This document shows positions 1-42,251 of a DNA stretch of 64,000 bases, piece after piece (positions within the stretch are counted from its first letter, which is position 1; the number at the start of each line of letters is the position of its first letter). Under the pieces are notes generated by a model. It made no database searches. It was not told the DNA's origin and worked only from the letters and a program-made list of their open reading frames with translations. Where the stretch lies: assembly GCA_008638375.1 (NCBI GenBank), contig CM018035.1, positions 38,033,058-38,097,057 of the forward strand, read 5' to 3'. This DNA comes from Nyssa sinensis. Lineage: Eukaryota; Streptophyta; Magnoliopsida; Cornales; Nyssaceae. The translations under genes and the position numbers were made by a program.

Positions 1-337
1 CAGCGTAGGAGACTTTCTGTTCAGTTGTGCAAGGCATCACGGTAAAAATGCGCTCCATTTCTCTTATCCATGATTCTGCACTAATCGTTGTATCCAGTCC
101 ATCAAACCTAGGCGGTTTGAATCCTTGGAATGTTTTATAAGTCGATGTGTTGGCTGCCTCAGCAGGTCGTACCAGATTTAGTGGAGGTTCAGGAGCTTGG
201 ACTGGTTGGGGCACTGGTTGGGGCATTTGGCCCTGAGCTTGGATACCTGCCAATGTCCGGCCCATTGCCTCTATAAGTTGCTCCATCCTATCCATTCTGT
301 CCTCGGAACTTCCCGTAGTCCTTCTGGTATTCACCAT
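1..337 (-). CDS. gag: Ty3/Gypsy gag polyprotein, N-terminal part (runs off left edge)
   Basis: Open reading frame of 112 codons on the minus strand from the ATG at 335-337 to the window edge, with no stop. The protein starts MVNTRR, has a charged/hydrophobic helix (residues about 12-30, DRMDRMEQLIEAMG), a Gln/Pro-rich linker (about 35-50), then the start of the Retrotrans_gag domain: FKPPRFDGLD, SWIREMERIF and CTTEQKVSYA. This domain order is typical of chromovirus-like Ty3/Gypsy gag, which forms the particle that packages element RNA. It lies about 565 nt downstream of an initiator-Met PBS, so it is the first ORF of element 1. The intact frame suggests a fairly young copy. Family is certain; a Tekay/Del-like lineage is likely but unproven without the reverse transcriptase. 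Confidence 0.9.
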   Translation of the reverse strand, partial: MVNTRRTTGSSEDRMDRMEQLIEAMGRTLAGIQAQGQMPQPVPQPVQAPEPPLNLVRPAEAANTSTYKTFQGFKPPRFDGLDTTISAESWIREMERIFTVMPCTTEQKVSYA

Positions 338-902
338 TTTTGCTGAAAACACACATCCATTAGTTTTCTATCACATGTTCATTGCATAAAATTTACTTTT
401 ATTTACTTCATGTTCTCAATGTGGGTTACCTTTTATCATCCCTATTTCTTTTACTTAAACACGGGTCCCATACCCCGTCTTCCTATCATATACGTACTTC
501 TAATAACTTGACTTACTCTAGTGCAGGTCCCATACCCTGCCCTTACATTACATTACATATCACGTACTTACATATTTAATTCATGAACTGCGAGTCCCAT
601 ACCTCGCCTTTACTTTACGTTACGTACTTTGTGTATCTATTTCATATAATGCGGGTCCCATACCCCGCCTTTACTTCATAACATATACTCCACATAATCA
701 TTTCATATATCGCGGGTCCCATACCCCGCCTTTACTTCATATTACTTACTTCACATATTTAGGTAGCCTAAGACTTACCTAACTCATAATTCTATTTTCG
801 AATCCTCTATCGTTACTAAGTTGATCTTAAGTCAACCTAGAACTAATCTTAATCATTCTTAACTTAAATTTCAGTCTTTTCCCAAAAGACCTAATACCTA
901 GT
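338..902 (-). other. Untranslated leader of element 1 between PBS and gag
   Basis: No coding potential. In element sense it runs from the PBS to the gag ATG. It contains a tandem array of about 61-bp units (461-729), each with a small hairpin, described separately. The rest is AT-rich and unremarkable. This is where packaging, dimerisation or translation signals lie in other LTR elements. Confidence 0.75.
461..729 (-). repeat. Five tandem hairpin units with compensated stem changes in the gag leader
   Basis: Five hairpins start at 461, 523, 590, 651 and 712 (spacing 62, 67, 61, 61). On the plus strand each is a 5-bp stem around an invariant loop TCCCATAC. Stems are ACGGG/CCCGT, GCAGG/CCTGC, GCGAG/CTCGC and twice GCGGG/CCCGC. 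Every change on one arm is matched on the other, so all five pair perfectly. An alternative fold adds one T-A pair with a bulged C and a CCCAT loop. Linkers between units are AT-rich and diverged far more than the hairpins. Confidence 0.85.
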
Positions 903-914
903 GCTCTGATACCA
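903..914 (-). promoter_or_regulatory. Primer-binding site, initiator tRNA-Met type (element 1)
   Basis: The minus strand reads TGGTATCAGAGC, complementary to the 3' end of plant initiator tRNA-Met. It sits three nucleotides inside the LTR boundary at 918. It fixes element 1 as minus-strand oriented with its 5' LTR at 918-5008. Confidence 0.9.
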
Positions 915-1353
915 TGTTGTCACGACCCGAAACCCACCCTAAGCGGATTACCGGATCGCGATCGCCGCCCGGAGACCCGAGGGCCCCGAGACAAGGCTCG
1001 CATATGCAGCGGTATCGAATAGATGTGCAACATACGTTTTGCGGAAGCGTGAAAAAACTTTTTCTTTTCTTTTATCATATTTAAATTATGCACATCCGTT
1101 CGGTACTGCCGCTCCATACATAGCATACATGGTTACACATTCAGAGTATAACTAAAAACTTAAAGACTTCATACATTCATACCATACATAACTGATTTGC
1201 CCAGAGGGCTTATTACATTACCTTACTATGTCTACTAATATAAAAGTACTATTAGAGTTTACAGACTTATCAAAAGAGACTAATTAACCATGTTCCTCCC
1301 AAAATCAGCAGACTTGTCATCATCGTCCTTAAATCCAAACTGCTGCTAATTAC

Positions 1354-2211
1354 CTGAAAGGGGGGGGGTCCGAACAAAGTCCGGGTAAGCTAATCTAAGC
1401 TTGTGAGCAATTCCAGTATTCGTCATGGTGTTTTTCAATTGGCAGCGGTTTAGTACATAAGAGTTCGTAAAATAGTCACCGCCAATTGTTCATATGATTG
1501 AATACAAGATATATGCATTCCTTAAAACATGTAGCTGTGAAGTATTTAAAACATTCAAGCTAAACTTATACATGTGAACTTTAAAACATATAACATATCA
1601 TGTATTTCTTAAATAGAGTATATAAAACTCAACATATGCATAATGAAAATGAGAGTAAAAACTTGCTTCCATTTTCAAATCATTTGTCATCTTATCACTT
1701 CCATTAGTGGAATCCGTTTCGAACCGGAGTCCCATATTACTTATCTATGGAGATATCTCATCTGCCTGAGGGATTAGATCCTGCTACCGGGCATTTTACA
1801 GGGCAATTGAGTTCCGTAAAACCCAAAATCCTGCCTATTTTACAGGGCAACTGAAAACTCAGAATCCTGTCTAAGTGCTTATGCACCATTATCTTGTAAA
1901 ACATTTATCATGTGACTTGTCTTATAAATACTTTTCATAAATTCGTAATAACATTCGTATACTTGAAGTAAGCAAATTCAGAATATTTAACAATAATTGC
2001 ATTTTAACTAGACATGCTAAAAAGTATTTGAAGGAAAAACTGTTGCAGAAACCAATCACTAAGCATGTCACAATGAATTTCTAAAACAGAACAATTAAAA
2101 ACTGAATCATGTAAATACTGAATTTGAAACTTCAAATACTTCATATCTTATACTTAAAATTCTTTTTAAATCATGGAGTTAAATCTCCAATTCAAATACA
2201 GGGTTACTCAC
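1354..2211 (-). other. Predicted intron 2 in the element 1 LTR
   Basis: The minus strand shows donor ACAAG|GTGAGTAACCC at 2212/2211 and acceptor CCCCCTTTCAG|GTAATTAG at 1354/1353, 858 bp apart. The same two sites occur at equivalent places in A (6823-7716), N (15696-16468), B (22881-24948), B' (32497-33838), D (28198-29074), G (48231-49057), J (55308-56141) and K (58304-59116). Splicing itself is inferred. Confidence 0.6.
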
Positions 2212-2231
2212 CTTGTACTTTTAGTCTTGTT

Positions 2232-2516
2232 CTATTTGGGTGCTTTGCCCCTGGCTTCCTTTAGCCTTTGAAGCCATTGCTGCAATGTTTCCGTATCTTC
2301 CCGTTTCTTAAGCTGTTTAGCTGCTAATTGCTCCTTTGTTATTGTCTTGTAAATAAAGGGGCTTACGCAGCATACTTCATTTGTTTTAGAAATTCGGATA
2401 CGATTTTGAATCAGCTGAAGTTGTCTTTCTAGCTGTTCCCGGAAAGCTTGCTGTCTTGGGTCACTTGCCAATTGGGCCCTTGTCTTCATAGGAGTGACTT
2501 CCTTTTCTTGGCTCAT
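2232..2516 (-). CDS. LTR-encoded small protein, 94 aa, unknown function
   Basis: The ORF opens at an ATG 20 nt after a possible acceptor (AAACAG at 2536-2538) and closes 20 nt before the conserved donor at 2211, so it would fit inside one spliced exon. The protein is basic and Gln/Lys-rich: MKTRAQLASD (about 10-19), a helical stretch REQLERQLQLIQNRIRI (about 26-42), and a C-terminal stretch DTETLQQWLQRLKEARGKAPK. I do not recognise a family. Its C-terminus is homologous to coding sequence in G (40244-40500, minus), which keeps a 190-bp intron exactly at the R/L boundary that is contiguous here. That makes it more than a chance ORF. It could be an LTR-native protein or an old host-gene capture. 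Expression is unknown. Confidence 0.5.
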   Translation of the reverse strand: MSQEKEVTPMKTRAQLASDPRQQAFREQLERQLQLIQNRIRISKTNEVCCVSPFIYKTITKEQLAAKQLKKREDTETLQQWLQRLKEARGKAPK

Positions 2517-3391
2517 TTTGTGTTTAATTAATTATCTGTTTAAAACACAATTTATCATGTCAAGAAAAATAGATTTCTACAATCATACTCTTCTGGGAGT
2601 TCCATTAACTTTTAATTTAAAGTTATTTACTTAACATGTTTACGTGTCGTGTCTTATCGTATTTCATTTCTCGTATTTGCCTCAGTTTAGTCCTTTGGCA
2701 ACAATTCAGTTCATAGTCATCTAACAGATGCTATTCATCAAATTTTATGTCTTTTTATTTTAGACATTTCTTTAGGTCGAATAGACTCTACCATTGAGTC
2801 CGAAGTGTTTAAGAAAGTCGGTTTAGACCTTTTTTGATTTCATTTTGGCTTTAGGGGTACCAGGGGTATTTTTGTCATTTTACCCTCCTTACGTGTCTTT
2901 ATTTTTCGGGACCCCGTCTCATGTCGTGGACCTCACCATTGGACTCAGAAGGTCCAAAATAGTAAGAATACATTAATAATTTGTCAATTTTGGTCAAGGG
3001 GTATTTTGGTAATTTACCCCTTACGTGACTTTATTTTTCGGGCTCCGTCTCGTAAAACGGACCCTACCATTAGTCTCAGAATATCCGAAATAGTAAGGAT
3101 ACACTATTCATTTATTAAATTTGGACTTTGTTTGACTTGTTTATGGGGCAAGGGCATTTTGGTCATTTTGACATTTTCTAGGGGTCTTAAATTTTTCGGG
3201 ACCTCATCTCATGTTGTGGACCTCACCAATGGGCTTAGGGGGTCCAAGATAGTAGGGTTACATATATAACTTGTAATTTTTGGACAACGGGCCATTTCGG
3301 AGTAATTAATTTAATTAATCAAATTTAATTAAATTAATTATAACATGTAATATATATATTATTAATGGGAAAAGGAGAATAGGTTGAATAG

Positions 3392-3417
3392 GATGGCACG
3401 CTGGCCAGCGTGCCATC
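3392..3417. repeat. 26-bp perfect palindrome
   Basis: The half site GATGGCACGCTGG is followed directly by its exact reverse complement with no spacer. It lies in the inferred intron 1 of the element 1 LTR, next to AT-rich sequence. No counterpart was found in the other LTRs. Confidence 0.85.
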
Positions 3418-3536
3418 TCCCTCCCCATACATCACAGGATCGAGTCCCACCAGGTGCGGCTGCACCTTTTTTATTTCCGTAATATATACATTATAATATA
3501 TATATATATATATATCGTGTTTATAAATGGACACAT

Positions 3537-3605
3537 GTGAGCGCGTGGCCGAGTGGAAAGGAGGAGACTTCCCACGCGCGAGGGTTAGGGATCGAAACCC
3601 CTTAG
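3537..3605 (+). other. tRNA-like segment, antisense to the LTR
   Basis: The plus strand carries TGGCCGAGTGG (A-box-like, D-arm of Ser/Leu-type tRNAs) and, about 35 nt on, GGGATCGAAACCCC (B-box/T-arm-like with a 7-nt loop). The cloverleaf is incomplete, so I do not call a tRNA gene. It is a relic of a tRNA or tRNA-derived SINE. Like the others in this window it is antisense to its host LTR. Confidence 0.45.
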
Positions 3606-5008
3606 CCACGATTTGCTTCCTTTCTCTTATTTTTTTACAACACGGTTTATATATAACCGTATACGCCCCTAAACGGCGCCGTTCCAATAACTCGGTGGCA
3701 AGCCCCAAGGCTGCCACCTGTCCCGAGTCCACCCACTGTTTTAAACAGTGCACGAGTCGACTCGGTCGTCTTCCCCGAGCGACCGACTGAAAACCCTAAT
3801 TCCCGATTTCCTTTTTCTCCTATTTCGTGACGTTTTACTCTTCCAAGCTCGACTGTTTTTGTCCCAATTTATCCCTAAGGTTCATACAAATCGATTGGCA
3901 TTGATTTTGAGCTTTAAAACTCCTTCACATGCGCGGTTTTGGACATGATAGCTGAACCTGTAATAGCCTCGGTTCATACTCGTTTCTTGACCATTTGTTA
4001 TGAGGTTTGGCTTGTTGTGATCCCCTCTTCATGGAGATCAAGTTTTCATTTAAATAAACGGCTTAAATCATGCGTTTAGAGGTTTGGGGTGTAGACCCGA
4101 AACCTGCAACTTGACATTTGAGGGCCTTTGTTCATGCTTTTTGGTCGCGGTCACACGTTTTTAACATGTTTATGTGGTCTAGAATAGGTCCCTATACACC
4201 AAACCAAGTTTGGTTTCCCTTCGATCAGACCTGCTTGAGCAAGGTCCATCCATGGCCGTGGCTTATGGGTCATGCAATCTTAGGTGTTTTTAAGCTAGAT
4301 TTTCATGCTTGTTAAGGTTTAGACGTGTTCTAAACATCATATATACAAATTGGAAGCTTTAAATCAGTTCATATGTAGAGAAATTCTAGAGAGGGAATTT
4401 CGACAGTTTTGAACACTCTCACCTTTTTGGTTGGTTTTCTTCCTCTTTCTTGCTTTAATCCTTCTTCTCTTCTCTTCAGTTCTTGTTCTTATGGTTTCTT
4501 TAGCAAGAAGAAAGCATGATTTGCATGCTTGGCCTTTATAGAGAAGTGACCGACTCTTCTCACTCCTCCCACCTCTCTCTCTCTCTCTACAGCTATCTTT
4601 CTCTCTCTCTACATTCTGAATTCTAGCCCTACATAGACTTCCCATCTCATAATTTCAGCCTTCTCTCTTTCCTACTTTGCATTAATTTCCCATAGATATT
4701 TATACATATTATATACATATATATACATATACACATATATATACAAGACACACACACACATACATTTGCCGACACACACACACACATTCACATTATTCAC
4801 CTCTTCACTTTTCATCTTTTTCATATTTCATTTATTTAATATATATATATATATACATTTACATACATTTAATTAATCCATATATATATATATATATCAA
4901 GTCTTATAATTAATTAATTAATGTAATAATCAATTAATTACATATATATGATTTTCTTCCCTCGTAGTACGTGTCACGTGACCCGGTATCCCGGGTCGGG
5001 ATATTACA

Positions 5009-13157: not shown

Positions 13158-16100
13158 TGTAACACCCCGACCCTGATTAAGTAATGATTAGTTACTAATC
13201 ATTTATCTGAACCAAACATAAAGAATAATTAAGAAGCTAACCTAATTAGGAGTTGACCAGAAGAAACGGCGTCGAAAAATAAGTCACAGAATAAAAGTTA
13301 AGTAGGAAATAGTGAAACTGCATTAATGCGCAGCCAAACAGGGCCTAAGCCTAAAATAGGGAAAAATAGCCAAAAGTGTGGCCAAGGGGGACTTGAACCC
13401 TTGACCAAGTGGGCATGATTATTGTTACCCAAAAAATTACCAACTAGGCTAGGAATCTCTTTGTGAACATATGTGCAAAGATATATATATAAATACCATT
13501 CAGATTTGACCATTCCCCAAAGTGGCCAATGGACAAGCATGCAACACCTCAGCATGCATCATCCTAAACCCTAGCCATCATGCCCCTCACCCCATGATTA
13601 CACCTCCCTCCCAACCAAATTGCATGCAATACAATCATGCATTTGGGGAAATGAAACATCAAGAGGAGACTTGATATGTATATACAATCTCCATATATGC
13701 AGATCTGCCATTTAGAGAGTGTTGATATACTGTTTATAGATAGGAAAAGTAGTGAGAGAGAGAGAGAGAAATCCTAGAGGGAGAGTGAGAGGTACACAAG
13801 TTGTATACCTTGGTGAGCCATTGAAGGAGCTTGAGGAGGCCAACGAACTGCACGGGGGAGGATCCAATCCAGCTCTTGAAGCTTCTGCTTGAGCACAACC
13901 AGTGAGGAAACCACTGTACACGTGAGTTATTCAAATTTTTTTTCAGAAATTCTCTTGAATTTTAGCTACTGTTTTATAGTTTTAGGATCTGTCATTGCAT
14001 GTGTAGTATTTTAACTTGAGAACTGGGTCATTTATAAATGATTTGGACCAACAAAACTGCCCTAAAACATAGAAATGGAAACAAACCGCCATTGATGAAG
14101 CTTGAGTTGCAGGTCTGATCCGACCTCAACCAACCGAGCTTTTGAGGGTTGAAACATGAAATAGGACATCTTAGGATCTTGGAAAACCCCAACCGCGACC
14201 TAGAAACCTAGGTTTAAACCCCCAAAAATGGCATTATTCTTTTCGGCCCAAATATGGATTCTTTGATTTTGACACTTAAACCGAAATTTTTGAGTTGGGA
14301 ATTGAAGTGCATGTTGTAAGGGTTGCAAAGGATCAAACCTCGTGCAAAATGATGAAGGAATGAGGCTGTATGGACTGACTGTAATTTCCCACAATAATCG
14401 GCTAGAACAGTCCCCTATTGTTGATTGTGATGCTTGAAATCGATGCCAAAAGGTTGGCCGAACCTCTAGGGTCATAGAACACCAAGAAACAGAGAGAAAC
14501 ACCTCTCCAAAACTCACAAAAATGGAAAAGAATAAACCCAGAAATTAGGGCAACAGTCCACTGTTCGATGAAGAAGACGACGAGTCGACCGAGTCGACTC
14601 GTCCAACGCGTCTAGACCCACTGAATCGACTCAAACACGTGTCAACCTAAGACCGTGCCACCGTTTAATCGAAACTGCGCCGTTTTGGTTTAAACGTTTT
14701 AAATTAAAACCTGGAGATGGCCTGTTTGGTCACGGGTTTTGTAAATTAAAATCAAATTTTTGAGTTAACCAAATCAGGGATAAGGGATTTAATGGGGCTA
14801 TGGCATTCCGGTTTTCCTGAAGTGGACTGGACCGGCTGGTTCAGTGAGTTGGTCGACCGGTCTAGGGTTTCAAACCCAAAGCCCACTGGTTCACAGAAAA
14901 ATTTAAAATAAACAAAAACCAAGGTTTTTGGAAATTACGAAATGACCCAACAGTTTTGGGAAAATTTCATTCTGGCCCAGATTTTGAAACTTTAATTCAT
15001 TTATACCCCTGATAAATTAATAAATAATAAATTAAATTATTTAATTAATTTATTAATTAAATAAAAATGACCAAATTACCCCTAGGTCATAAATAAGTCA
15101 AACGGAGTCCGAATAAAGTAAACGAATAGTGGATTTTGACTATTTTGGACGTTCCGGACTCAATGGTGTGGTCCGTTTTATGAGACGAGGCTTCAAAAAT
15201 TACGATACGTTAAAGTACAAATTACCAAATTGCCCCTAATGTAGTCGATGCCCAAATAAGACAAGTTATTAGTGTAATCTTATTCTCTTGGGCCTTCTGA
15301 GATCAACAGTGAGGTCCGATTCACGAGACAGGACTCCAAAAAATATGACGCACGAAATGACCAAACTACCCCTAAGGTACCCGAAGCCCAAATGAACTAA
15401 AAGATAGTCTATTTTGACTATGTCGGACATTCCAAACCCAACGGTGAAGTCTATAACACCAAAATAGGTACGGAAAATTTAGTCACGTGGAAAATAAAAC
15501 TCATCAAGTCACCACGAGTTGACTAGTAAGACCAATCCTAGGAAGTTAGGATACGTTAGGCCTAAAATTAAATGAAAGAGCATGAATAGGTAACGATTTA
15601 AGGTAAATATGAAGTTAACGAGTTCTTTATAATTTTCTTAGGAAATACAAAGGAAAGGGAAAAGCCCACCAGTAGTGCAAACCCGGGGAATCAAGGTGAG
15701 TAACCTCACATTTGAAGTGGAGATTTAATTCCACGGATTTGAATGATGTTTTAAATATCAAATTCTGTCTTTACACAATTCCGTTTTAAATATTCTGTTA
15801 TGACATGCTTCCTGAATAATTTACTACTGTTCTTTGAGAGATACTTCTGCATGTCTAAAACTTCGATTTCAAATGTTATTATATATCCTAAATTTACATG
15901 TTTCACGTATTTCAATACCCTATCATGAGATTATGAACTGTATGTTTTGAATGCTTTTAAATGCATCCACACGAAGGAATTATGGGTTAAATGCTTTTAA
16001 ATGCAAGATAAATTGTGCATAAGCACCACGGATTTCTATCGGGTTTCTTAGGAACCCAACTACGATACGAATAAATGCCAGGTAGCAGGATCTAATCCCC

Positions 16101-16931
16101 CAGGCATATGAGATATCTCCACGAAAAGTAAAATGGGAATCTGGTTCGAAATGGATTCTGTTAATGAAAGTGATAAGGTGTGTGTTGAAAATGGAAGCAG
16201 GCTTTTTCCTCATTTTCACCATGCATATTTACATGATTTGAAATTCACATACTTTACTCCGAAAGTACAAGTTAGCTTGAATACTGTAATGTTTCAAGCC
16301 ATTGTTTAAAGAATGCATGTACTCTATGTTCCAAGTATACGAGCAATTGGTAGTGAGTATTTTACAAAATTCTCACGTGCGAAACCACTACCAATTGAAA
16401 CCCATGACAGATGTTAGAATTACTCACTGGGCTTTTCGAAGCTCACCCCATTCCCTAACATTTTTCAGGTGATGACGATGGGTGGACCCTTGCCCAATTT
16501 GGGGAGAAATGATAGGCAGCTCCATTAGGATTCTGGAGATATTTTTGGGAAGTATTAGGGCCTATGGTTTGTTGAATTTTGATGTCGTACTTTTGGACAA
16601 TTATGTATTTAAGCCCAAGAGGCAACCACATATGTACTTAAGCCCTTGAGGCATTCGAATATGTGTCATGTATAAGACTTTAATTTTTAGTATGCTCTGA
16701 TGTGATTATTCATGTGTACCGCTATGAAGAGCGACAGTACCGGACGGCTGTGCGAAAGTTTTTAAAGGATTTTTTTTTAAAAAAAAGAAAAGGGTTTTCA
16801 CGCTTCCGCAAATCAAGGCCGCACCGCTATTCGATACCGTCGCCTAAGTTTTGCCTTGCCCTCAGGCTCCCGGGCCTGAAGGCGGCGGTCGCGATCCGAG
16901 ATCCGCACAGGGTGGGTTTCGGGTCGTGACA
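13158..16931 (+). mobile_element. Solo LTR N nested in element A (3774 bp)
   Basis: Starts TGTAACACCCCGACCC and ends GGGTCGTGACA with the exact duplication AGATG on both sides (13153-13157, 16932-16936). No PBS or internal sequence adjoins it, so it is a solo LTR. Inferred layout: TATA at 13481-13494; GA run near 13755-13770; exon 1 donor ACAC|GTGAGT at 13922; intron 1 13922-15641; 54-nt exon 2 15642-15695; intron 2 15696-16468; last exon to the end. Intron 1 holds subrepeats at 15060-15440 and an ACACGTGTC motif near 14636. Confidence 0.93.
13373..13455 (-). other. tRNA-like module, antisense in LTR N
   Basis: The minus strand shows TAGCCTAGTTGGTAA (A box) and CAAGGGTTCAAGTCCCCCTTG (T-arm with a TTCAAGT loop, B box). 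Same type and polarity as in B, but about 215 bp from the LTR start instead of about 415. Confidence 0.6.
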
Positions 16932-17054
16932 AGATGTCCAGTCAATCAATAAGAGAAAAATCAAGGATCGTATGAACTCTATATAAGGAAGGTCAGTTAC
17001 ATCTATTCATTCTATTTCTAGTCCTATCTCCCATGACTCACAATCGAACCTATA

Positions 17055-17066
17055 GCTCTGATACCA
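17055..17066 (-). promoter_or_regulatory. Primer-binding site of element A
   Basis: The minus strand reads TGGTATCAGAGC, complementary to initiator tRNA-Met, three nucleotides inside the LTR boundary at 17070. Confidence 0.92.
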
Positions 17067-42239: not shown

Positions 42240-42251
42240 TGGTATCAGAGC
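42240..42251 (+). promoter_or_regulatory. Primer-binding site of element H
   Basis: TGGTATCAGAGC, complementary to initiator tRNA-Met, four nucleotides after the LTR end. Confidence 0.92.

Follow-up and report, generated by a model that had tools for sequence, protein, structure and literature searches.

Background

In HIV-1 MAL, an A-rich loop of the viral RNA pairs with the anticodon loop of tRNA-Lys3, with a G-A pair closing the contact, and a loop of HIV-2 upstream of the PBS likewise contacts the tRNA-Lys3 anticodon (PMC3185550). The same source describes that HIV-1 HxB2 was primed by tRNA-His, tRNA-Met or tRNA-Lys1,2 once both the PBS and the A-loop had been matched to them, and that the anticodon contact is disputed for HIV-1 NL4-3 and HxB2 (PMC3185550). 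HIV-1 infectivity is reported to have fallen when the anticodon contact was abolished, and the contact was reported to protect the RNA from RNase H (PMC7793103).

For Ty1 and Ty3, the source passages describe an extended or bipartite PBS, where further segments complement the T and D arms of tRNA-iMet and have a role in packaging or initiation (PMC4974528, PMC5371799). Half-tRNA priming is described for Drosophila copia, yeast Ty5 and fungal Helenus, which use a complement of the anticodon region, of tRNA-iMet among others (section of PMC10886601). In Sireviruses, a short dyad is repeated 8-32 times in the LTRs and before env, and the source section reads these repeats as likely transcriptional sites (PMC2829016).

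Here we analysed an LTR retrotransposon at the left end of the window (the whole stretch of 64 kb of Nyssa sinensis DNA), with five hairpins between its PBS and gag. As for the HIV-1 A-rich loop, the six inner letters of the hairpin loop complement the anticodon loop of the very tRNA that the PBS designates as primer. HIV-1 has one U5 loop upstream of the PBS and its contact was shown experimentally, whereas here 3-12 repeated loops on covarying stems lie downstream, the primer is initiator tRNA-Met and the contact is predicted from sequence. Since the positional feature of HIV-1 is absent, the array may work like the HIV-1 kind and we do not file it as a member.

With Ty1/Ty3, the element shares the tRNA-iMet primer, and its gag is similar to the Ty3 capsid; its D-arm complement (11 nt, exact here) may correspond to their extra arm complementarity. 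It has an anticodon-loop hairpin array, and none is mentioned for Ty1/Ty3 in the source passages (PMC4974528, PMC5371799). As in copia, Ty5 and Helenus, the RNA is complementary to a tRNA anticodon loop; those elements, however, use the anticodon complement as their PBS, whereas here the PBS pairs with the 3' end of the tRNA and the other complements are over 100 nt away. The Sirevirus motifs are also repeated short dyads in the non-coding DNA of a plant LTR element. However, those are CGG-CCG palindromes for which the source section reports no covariation (PMC2829016), whereas the units found here lie between PBS and gag and have covarying, variable arms around a fixed, asymmetric centre. The array differs from the known systems in its repetition, its position and its primer. 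Among the open-access papers listed by literature searches, no title or abstract opening described such an array, and the hairpin sequence strings had no match in the open-access papers searched.

The element and its five hairpins

The element lies on the minus strand, with its LTR end at about 918; the PBS comes next, and roughly 570 nt of leader separate it from the gag start (Table 1). The original prediction of a minus-strand transcript with five hairpins upstream of gag, all with one 8-nt loop and compensated stems, was borne out: the gag ATG and the PBS fix the orientation, and all five stems have 5/5 pairs intact. On the plus strand the loop TCCCATAC starts at 466, 528, 595, 656 and 717 (spacing 62, 67, 61 and 61), which in the transcript is the 8-nt loop GTATGGGA on a 5-bp stem. 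Two further loop octamers in the 64-kb window (45756 and 56079) were without such a stem.

Table 1. Features of the element at the left end of the window
Feature	Position in window	Strand	Description
gag start	1..337	-	ATG at 337-335, MVNTRR; cut by the window's left end
Hairpin 5 of transcript	461..478	-	stem ACGGG/CCCGT, loop GTATGGGA
Hairpin 4 of transcript	523..540	-	stem GCAGG/CCTGC
Hairpin 3 of transcript	590..607	-	stem GCGAG/CTCGC
Hairpin 2 of transcript	651..668	-	stem GCGGG/CCCGC
Hairpin 1 of transcript	712..729	-	stem GCGGG/CCCGC
PBS TGGTATCAGAGC	903..914	-	complement of initiator tRNA-Met 3' end
LTR box	1041..1051	-	complement of the D arm (nt 15-25) of initiator tRNA-Met

The minus-strand RNA of window positions 436-770 had a folding energy of -77.6 kcal/mol (z -2.43; 2 of 100 shuffles were equally stable), and both its minimum-energy and its centroid structure contained all five hairpins. 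Rfam covariance models gave no match at E <= 1 in window positions 1-4000, and in four relatives the sole match was snoR23, far under its cut-off (34.9 vs 70 bits).

From its gag domains and LTR-adjoining PBS alone, the element is assigned as a Ty3/gypsy-like LTR retrotransposon. The whole gag frame of the window copy (L074, 365 aa) matched Pfam Retrotrans_gag (E 2.8e-15), Ty3_capsid (9e-10) and zf-CCHC (6.6e-8). The 112-aa gag piece inside the window had no match, and a search of the protein collection gave no gag relatives at E <= 0.001.

Three further observations were made in the window. A short hairpin, spotted by eye, lies directly downstream of the PBS at 881-900 on the minus strand (GTCTTTT-GGG-AAAAGAC in the transcript). 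A PBS at 42240-42251 (+) belongs to another initiator-tRNA-primed LTR element, with no hairpin of the array type in the next 700 nt. At 16799-17066, an exact initiator-tRNA PBS at 17055 (-) has its leader broken by an LTR in inverse orientation, and this LTR contains the D-arm box described below.

Distribution of the hairpins and sampling of leaders

Three loops at the spacing of the window copy were found at 1,662 places in the genome (1,000,968,657 bases; overlapping triples within one leader counted separately) vs 115 for the reversed pattern. As this reversed, non-complemented triple occurs 115 times, some other tandem repeat holds CATACCCT at such spacing. A triple with the variant loop TCCDATAC stayed near its control (21 vs 13). 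In IMG/VR, 23 stretches had three loops at the spacing, with the stem absent at all sites among the matches listed (at most six each), and no place had the D-arm box together with the PBS.

Leaders of this one genome were sampled by three routes: similarity of leader DNA (8 loci), the loop pattern (47 leaders on contig C1 and the start of C2) and a gag search blind to the hairpins, from which we took the best 30 of 150 scored matches (family A) and 10 copies of a second family, at 66-71% identity. The 95 pooled leaders, each with at least 3 units, formed 61 clusters at 97% identity. Units with more than two loop letters changed or with badly decayed arms were left out of the counts. The leader-DNA and loop-pattern sets bias the pair-state, tree and loop counts given below toward the loop, whereas the gag-picked sets are without that bias.

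Rather than missing from most relatives, the units were present in every gag-picked copy: 3-7 hairpins in 30/30 of family A and in 10/10 of the second family (40/40). Over the 95 leaders, the number of units ranged from 3 to 12. The spacing was 58-62 nt in 184/251 cases, with a full range of 41 to 168 nt. The first hairpin lay 102-178 nt downstream of the PBS in 52/53 leaders and 261 nt downstream in the remaining one.

Stem covariation and loop conservation

In the 61 representatives, the exact loop was present in 286/312 units. Compared with the commonest pair at each position, the stem pairs of these 312 units comprised 1,213 reference states, 120 compensated Watson-Crick doubles, 129 single G.U, 59 single A.C, 35 single transversion mismatches and 4 double mismatches. 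Paired cells amounted to 1,462/1,560, against a mean of 1,380 and a maximum of 1,402 in 2,000 shuffles. Since these tree-free counts are dominated by wobbles at pair 1 (77 G.U vs 13 A.C) and show an excess of A.C over G.U at pair 3 (20 vs 15) and pair 5 (5 vs 2), we relied on a tree-based count.

The unit tree was built from the flanks alone (52 nt) and midpoint-rooted. On its internal branches, the stems underwent 13 changes from Watson-Crick to G.U, the outermost pair accounting for 8, as well as 11 compensated doubles, 5 changes from G.U to Watson-Crick, 3 from Watson-Crick to A.C, 3 from Watson-Crick to other mismatches and 1 from A.C to Watson-Crick. Terminal branches had 60 changes from Watson-Crick to G.U, 54 to A.C, 25 to other mismatches, 15 doubles and 14 others. 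The ratio of single G.U to A.C changes was thus 13:3 on internal vs 60:54 on terminal branches (Fisher p 0.034). Even numbers of G.U and A.C on terminal branches are as expected for the decay of inserted copies, and the lineages that kept jumping tolerate G.U rather than A.C, read on the transcript strand.

In an offset-pair control, where the left base was combined with the wrong partner, no Watson-Crick to Watson-Crick double fell on internal branches. When changes were scattered independently per arm on the tree, pairs 4 and 3 were significant (2/400 and 5/400), and pairs 2, 5 and 1 were not (60, 119 and 207 of 400). The covariation of the original prediction is therefore significant against this null at pairs 3 and 4 but not at pairs 1, 2 and 5, and our covariation claim rests on these two pairs and on the G.U pattern.

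For the loop, the eight columns underwent 1 internal vs 26 terminal changes, and the 50 flank columns 490 vs 725 (Fisher 2.8e-5). In the 30 gag-picked leaders of family A, linkers had a mean pairwise difference of 0.046, compared with 0.018 for stems, 0.010 for loops and 0 for the PBS. Restricted to G/C columns, stems still differed less than linkers (0.020 vs 0.073), and the permutation p for loop vs linker was 0.0035 in G/C columns and 0.029 in A/T columns. Linkers said to have diverged freely have done so relative to stems and loops. One-sided stem mutation did not run at the linker rate.

The claim of selection for RNA structure is supported by the units of the 40/40 gag-picked relatives and by stems changing less than linkers. 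Three results weigh on the other side: the one-sided changes common on terminal branches (60 G.U, 54 A.C and 25 others), the significance of only pairs 3 and 4 against the tree-based null, and a cruder comparison with nearest orthologues, where stems differed more than flanks (0.125 vs 0.061; loop 0.023). We infer that this stem excess comes from choosing orthologues by flank similarity and from CpG in the stems. The frozen loop and the compensated stems are direct observations, and the hairpins are very probably under selection as RNA. A frozen loop on a stem that is free to change but stays paired fits recognition of the loop in trans, with the stem in a structural role.

Two explanations do without a selected RNA structure. 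Tandem duplication could have spread a functionless hairpin, with template switching in the quasi-palindrome producing compensated changes that are not selected. Units are gained and lost, as their variable number (3 to 12) and spacing (41 to 168 nt) indicate, and most doubles arise within one branch (11 internal, 15 terminal), as such switching would have it. However, the frozen loop (1 internal vs 26 terminal changes), the presence in 40/40 gag-picked copies and the scarcity of internal A.C changes are left unexplained, and we regard this origin as highly improbable. The other explanation takes the units as DNA dyads bound by a transcription factor, similar to the Sirevirus palindromes. Repeated dyads are indeed described in the non-coding DNA of plant LTR elements (section of PMC2829016), but a fixed asymmetric centre with arms that vary pairwise is the opposite of a dyad site, and internal branches tolerate G.U and not A.C on the transcript strand. 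We give this explanation very little credence.

Complementarity to the primer tRNA

The PBS matches the 3' end of initiator tRNA-Met, which is therefore the primer. The 3' half of this tRNA was found at 13 places in the genome, 10 of them letter-identical; the search pattern itself demanded CCCATAAC, so this count is no test of the loop. ARAGORN called two of four such places as tRNA-Met(CAT) with the anticodon loop CCCATAA and left the other two uncalled.

TATGGG, at letters 2-7 of the loop, exactly complements CCCATA, six of the seven anticodon-loop bases of initiator tRNA-Met. Given the leader composition, a random 8-mer contains a 6-mer complement of the anticodon loop with a chance of 0.0024, rising to 0.025 when the whole tRNA is considered, and 9/16,318 linker 8-mers contained one. 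The calculated duplex of the loop with CCCAUAA had -8.4 kcal/mol, compared with -5.4 for the U33 loop CUCAUAA. C33 in place of U33 is a mark of the initiator tRNA. This tRNA also has t6A at position 37, which may weaken one of the loop-anticodon pairs. Dimerisation through the loops, one of the functions first suggested for the hairpins, is unlikely, as the loop self-duplex has only -0.4 kcal/mol.

Two other readings of the loop were tried and rejected. Pairing in cis was not favoured, as 138,382 nt of collected sequence in transcript sense contained CCCATA only 16 times, under the 34 expected. A G-quadruplex (cf. PMC3902901) seems at odds with the GCGAG and GCAGG units, where the first G run is broken.

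The LTR holds a second complement, CACGCTTCCGC, an exact 11-nt match covering the D loop and 3' D stem (tRNA nt 15-25). It emerged when, after the loop match had been seen, 53 leaders were compared with the tRNA over its full length; the original prediction had overlooked both matches. Every 8-mer of CACGCTTCCGC was present in 27-29/53 leaders (shuffled mean <= 0.1). After setting aside 6 of the 61 representatives without a PBS call and 6 with a short upstream sequence, the box was found within 3 mismatches in 41/49 (exact in 28) and was missing in 8; with 3 mismatches allowed, such a box is expected by chance at some point of a 200-nt stretch with a probability of about 0.2, which is not rare. 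Its distance before the PBS was 133-138 nt in 36/41 and about 137 nt in the window copy, a nearly fixed distance that holds across subfamilies. The stretch around the box is generally conserved (0.92 vs 0.87-0.89 upstream).

At genome scale, box and PBS at such spacing occurred at 477 places (reversed control 0), and the PBS dodecamer at 15,780 (control 20), so that most initiator-type PBS are without an exact box at that spacing. On contig C1, 19/25 box and PBS places adjoin a triple-hairpin place and 6 do not. The calculated duplexes with the tRNA had -20.5 kcal/mol for the D box and -19.9 for the PBS.

A third complement, TGGGACCT (tRNA nt 43-50, towards the T arm), was present in 24/53 leaders within GCAGG-type hairpins. 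Being part of these hairpins, it indicates that some complementarity may be fortuitous; its pairing would need the stem opened, and it is left out of the model below.

Proposed mechanism and alternatives

On the strength of these complementarities, we lean towards the reading that the hairpins give the genomic RNA a multivalent anti-anticodon array, with contact to the primer tRNA as their main use. In the loop G-UAUGGG-A, the six inner bases would kiss the anticodon loop of initiator tRNA-Met, forming a loop-loop helix with its bases C-C-C-A-U-A. On either side of these six bases, G1 and A8 could make a closing G-A pair as in the HIV-1 A-rich loop. The tRNA would then be held at three points, its 3' end by the PBS, its D arm by the D box and its anticodon loop by one or more hairpin loops. 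Several equal loops would raise the odds of holding a tRNA and its local concentration for packaging and annealing. Array and D box together might keep the primer on the template so that reverse transcription can start, with the CCHC zinc knuckle of Gag as a putative annealing chaperone. The PBS, the exact complementarities and the knuckle are observed; the tRNA pairing itself would be their consequence, and primer capture its probable use rather than translation repression or RNA protection. The same contact could alternatively act as a shield against RNase H, an effect reported for HIV-1, or it could cover the AUG of the loop and so repress translation.

We extend this reading only tentatively to a tandem tRNA trap, with up to 12 covarying anti-anticodon hairpins and a D-arm box, that perhaps began as a copy of the primer tRNA in the leader. 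The hairpin and the antisense of the whole anticodon arm are alike (GYGGG-GTATGGGA-CCCRC vs GTGGG-TTATGGG-CCCAC). In another stretch of the genome (L116, C3:425209-425329), a PBS precedes an antisense copy of initiator tRNA-Met, longer and with the anticodon arm included, as if the primer tRNA had been copied into a retroelement; antisense primer-tRNA copies do occur.

Doubt on the tRNA contact comes from a match that was noticed after the fact, from the equal conservation of the non-pairing G1 and A8, from only two stem pairs being significant and from the use of one genome. Moreover, only six nucleotides would pair, and the array is downstream of the PBS whereas the HIV-1 loop is upstream.

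The conservation of G1 and A8 (308/312 and 311/312, as conserved as the other loop bases) bears on a different explanation, where the Gag zinc knuckle or a host protein reads the GUAUGGGA loop on its stem, selecting genomic RNA for packaging, export or localisation, and the anticodon match is due to chance. All eight loop bases are conserved, including the two unable to pair with the tRNA; repeated hairpins with a fixed loop and a free stem suit protein binding, and gag has the CCHC knuckle. However, neither the 6-nt complementarity with the anticodon loop (0.0024) nor the D-arm box would follow from such binding. We know of no protein that binds the hairpin loop GUAUGGGA. A multivalent protein-binding signal is the main alternative, though a rather unlikely one.

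The loops also contain AUG in 302/312 units, with G at -3 in 304/312 and G at +4 in 302/312. Hairpins and loop AUGs could slow scanning and catch ribosomes on short uORFs, keeping gag low and sparing RNA for packaging. The loop uORFs are short (median 10 codons), and in family A they have 10 codons in 27/30 for the first unit and 6 codons in 30/30 for the last, although these constant lengths may reflect shared descent. Over all units there are 19 different uORF lengths, and a uORF requires neither a covarying stem nor fixed bases ahead of the AUG. Leaders contain about 16 further AUGs on average, so those of the loops are not special; plain scanning to gag looks difficult with this number. 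For the array as a whole, we consider translation control improbable.

Significance

To our knowledge, little is known of how plant LTR retrotransposons recruit their primer tRNA and package their RNA. Even in Ty1/Ty3, the cis-acting packaging sequences are described as not clearly defined in the source section (PMC4974528). Should the tRNA reading prove wrong, the retrotransposon RNA would still have a strongly conserved, multivalent array of hairpins that needs explaining. If it is true, the array would be a natural, repeated and genetically variable case of the anticodon-loop contact long debated for HIV-1, and hundreds of leaders within one genome would exemplify contact with the anticodon loop of the primer.
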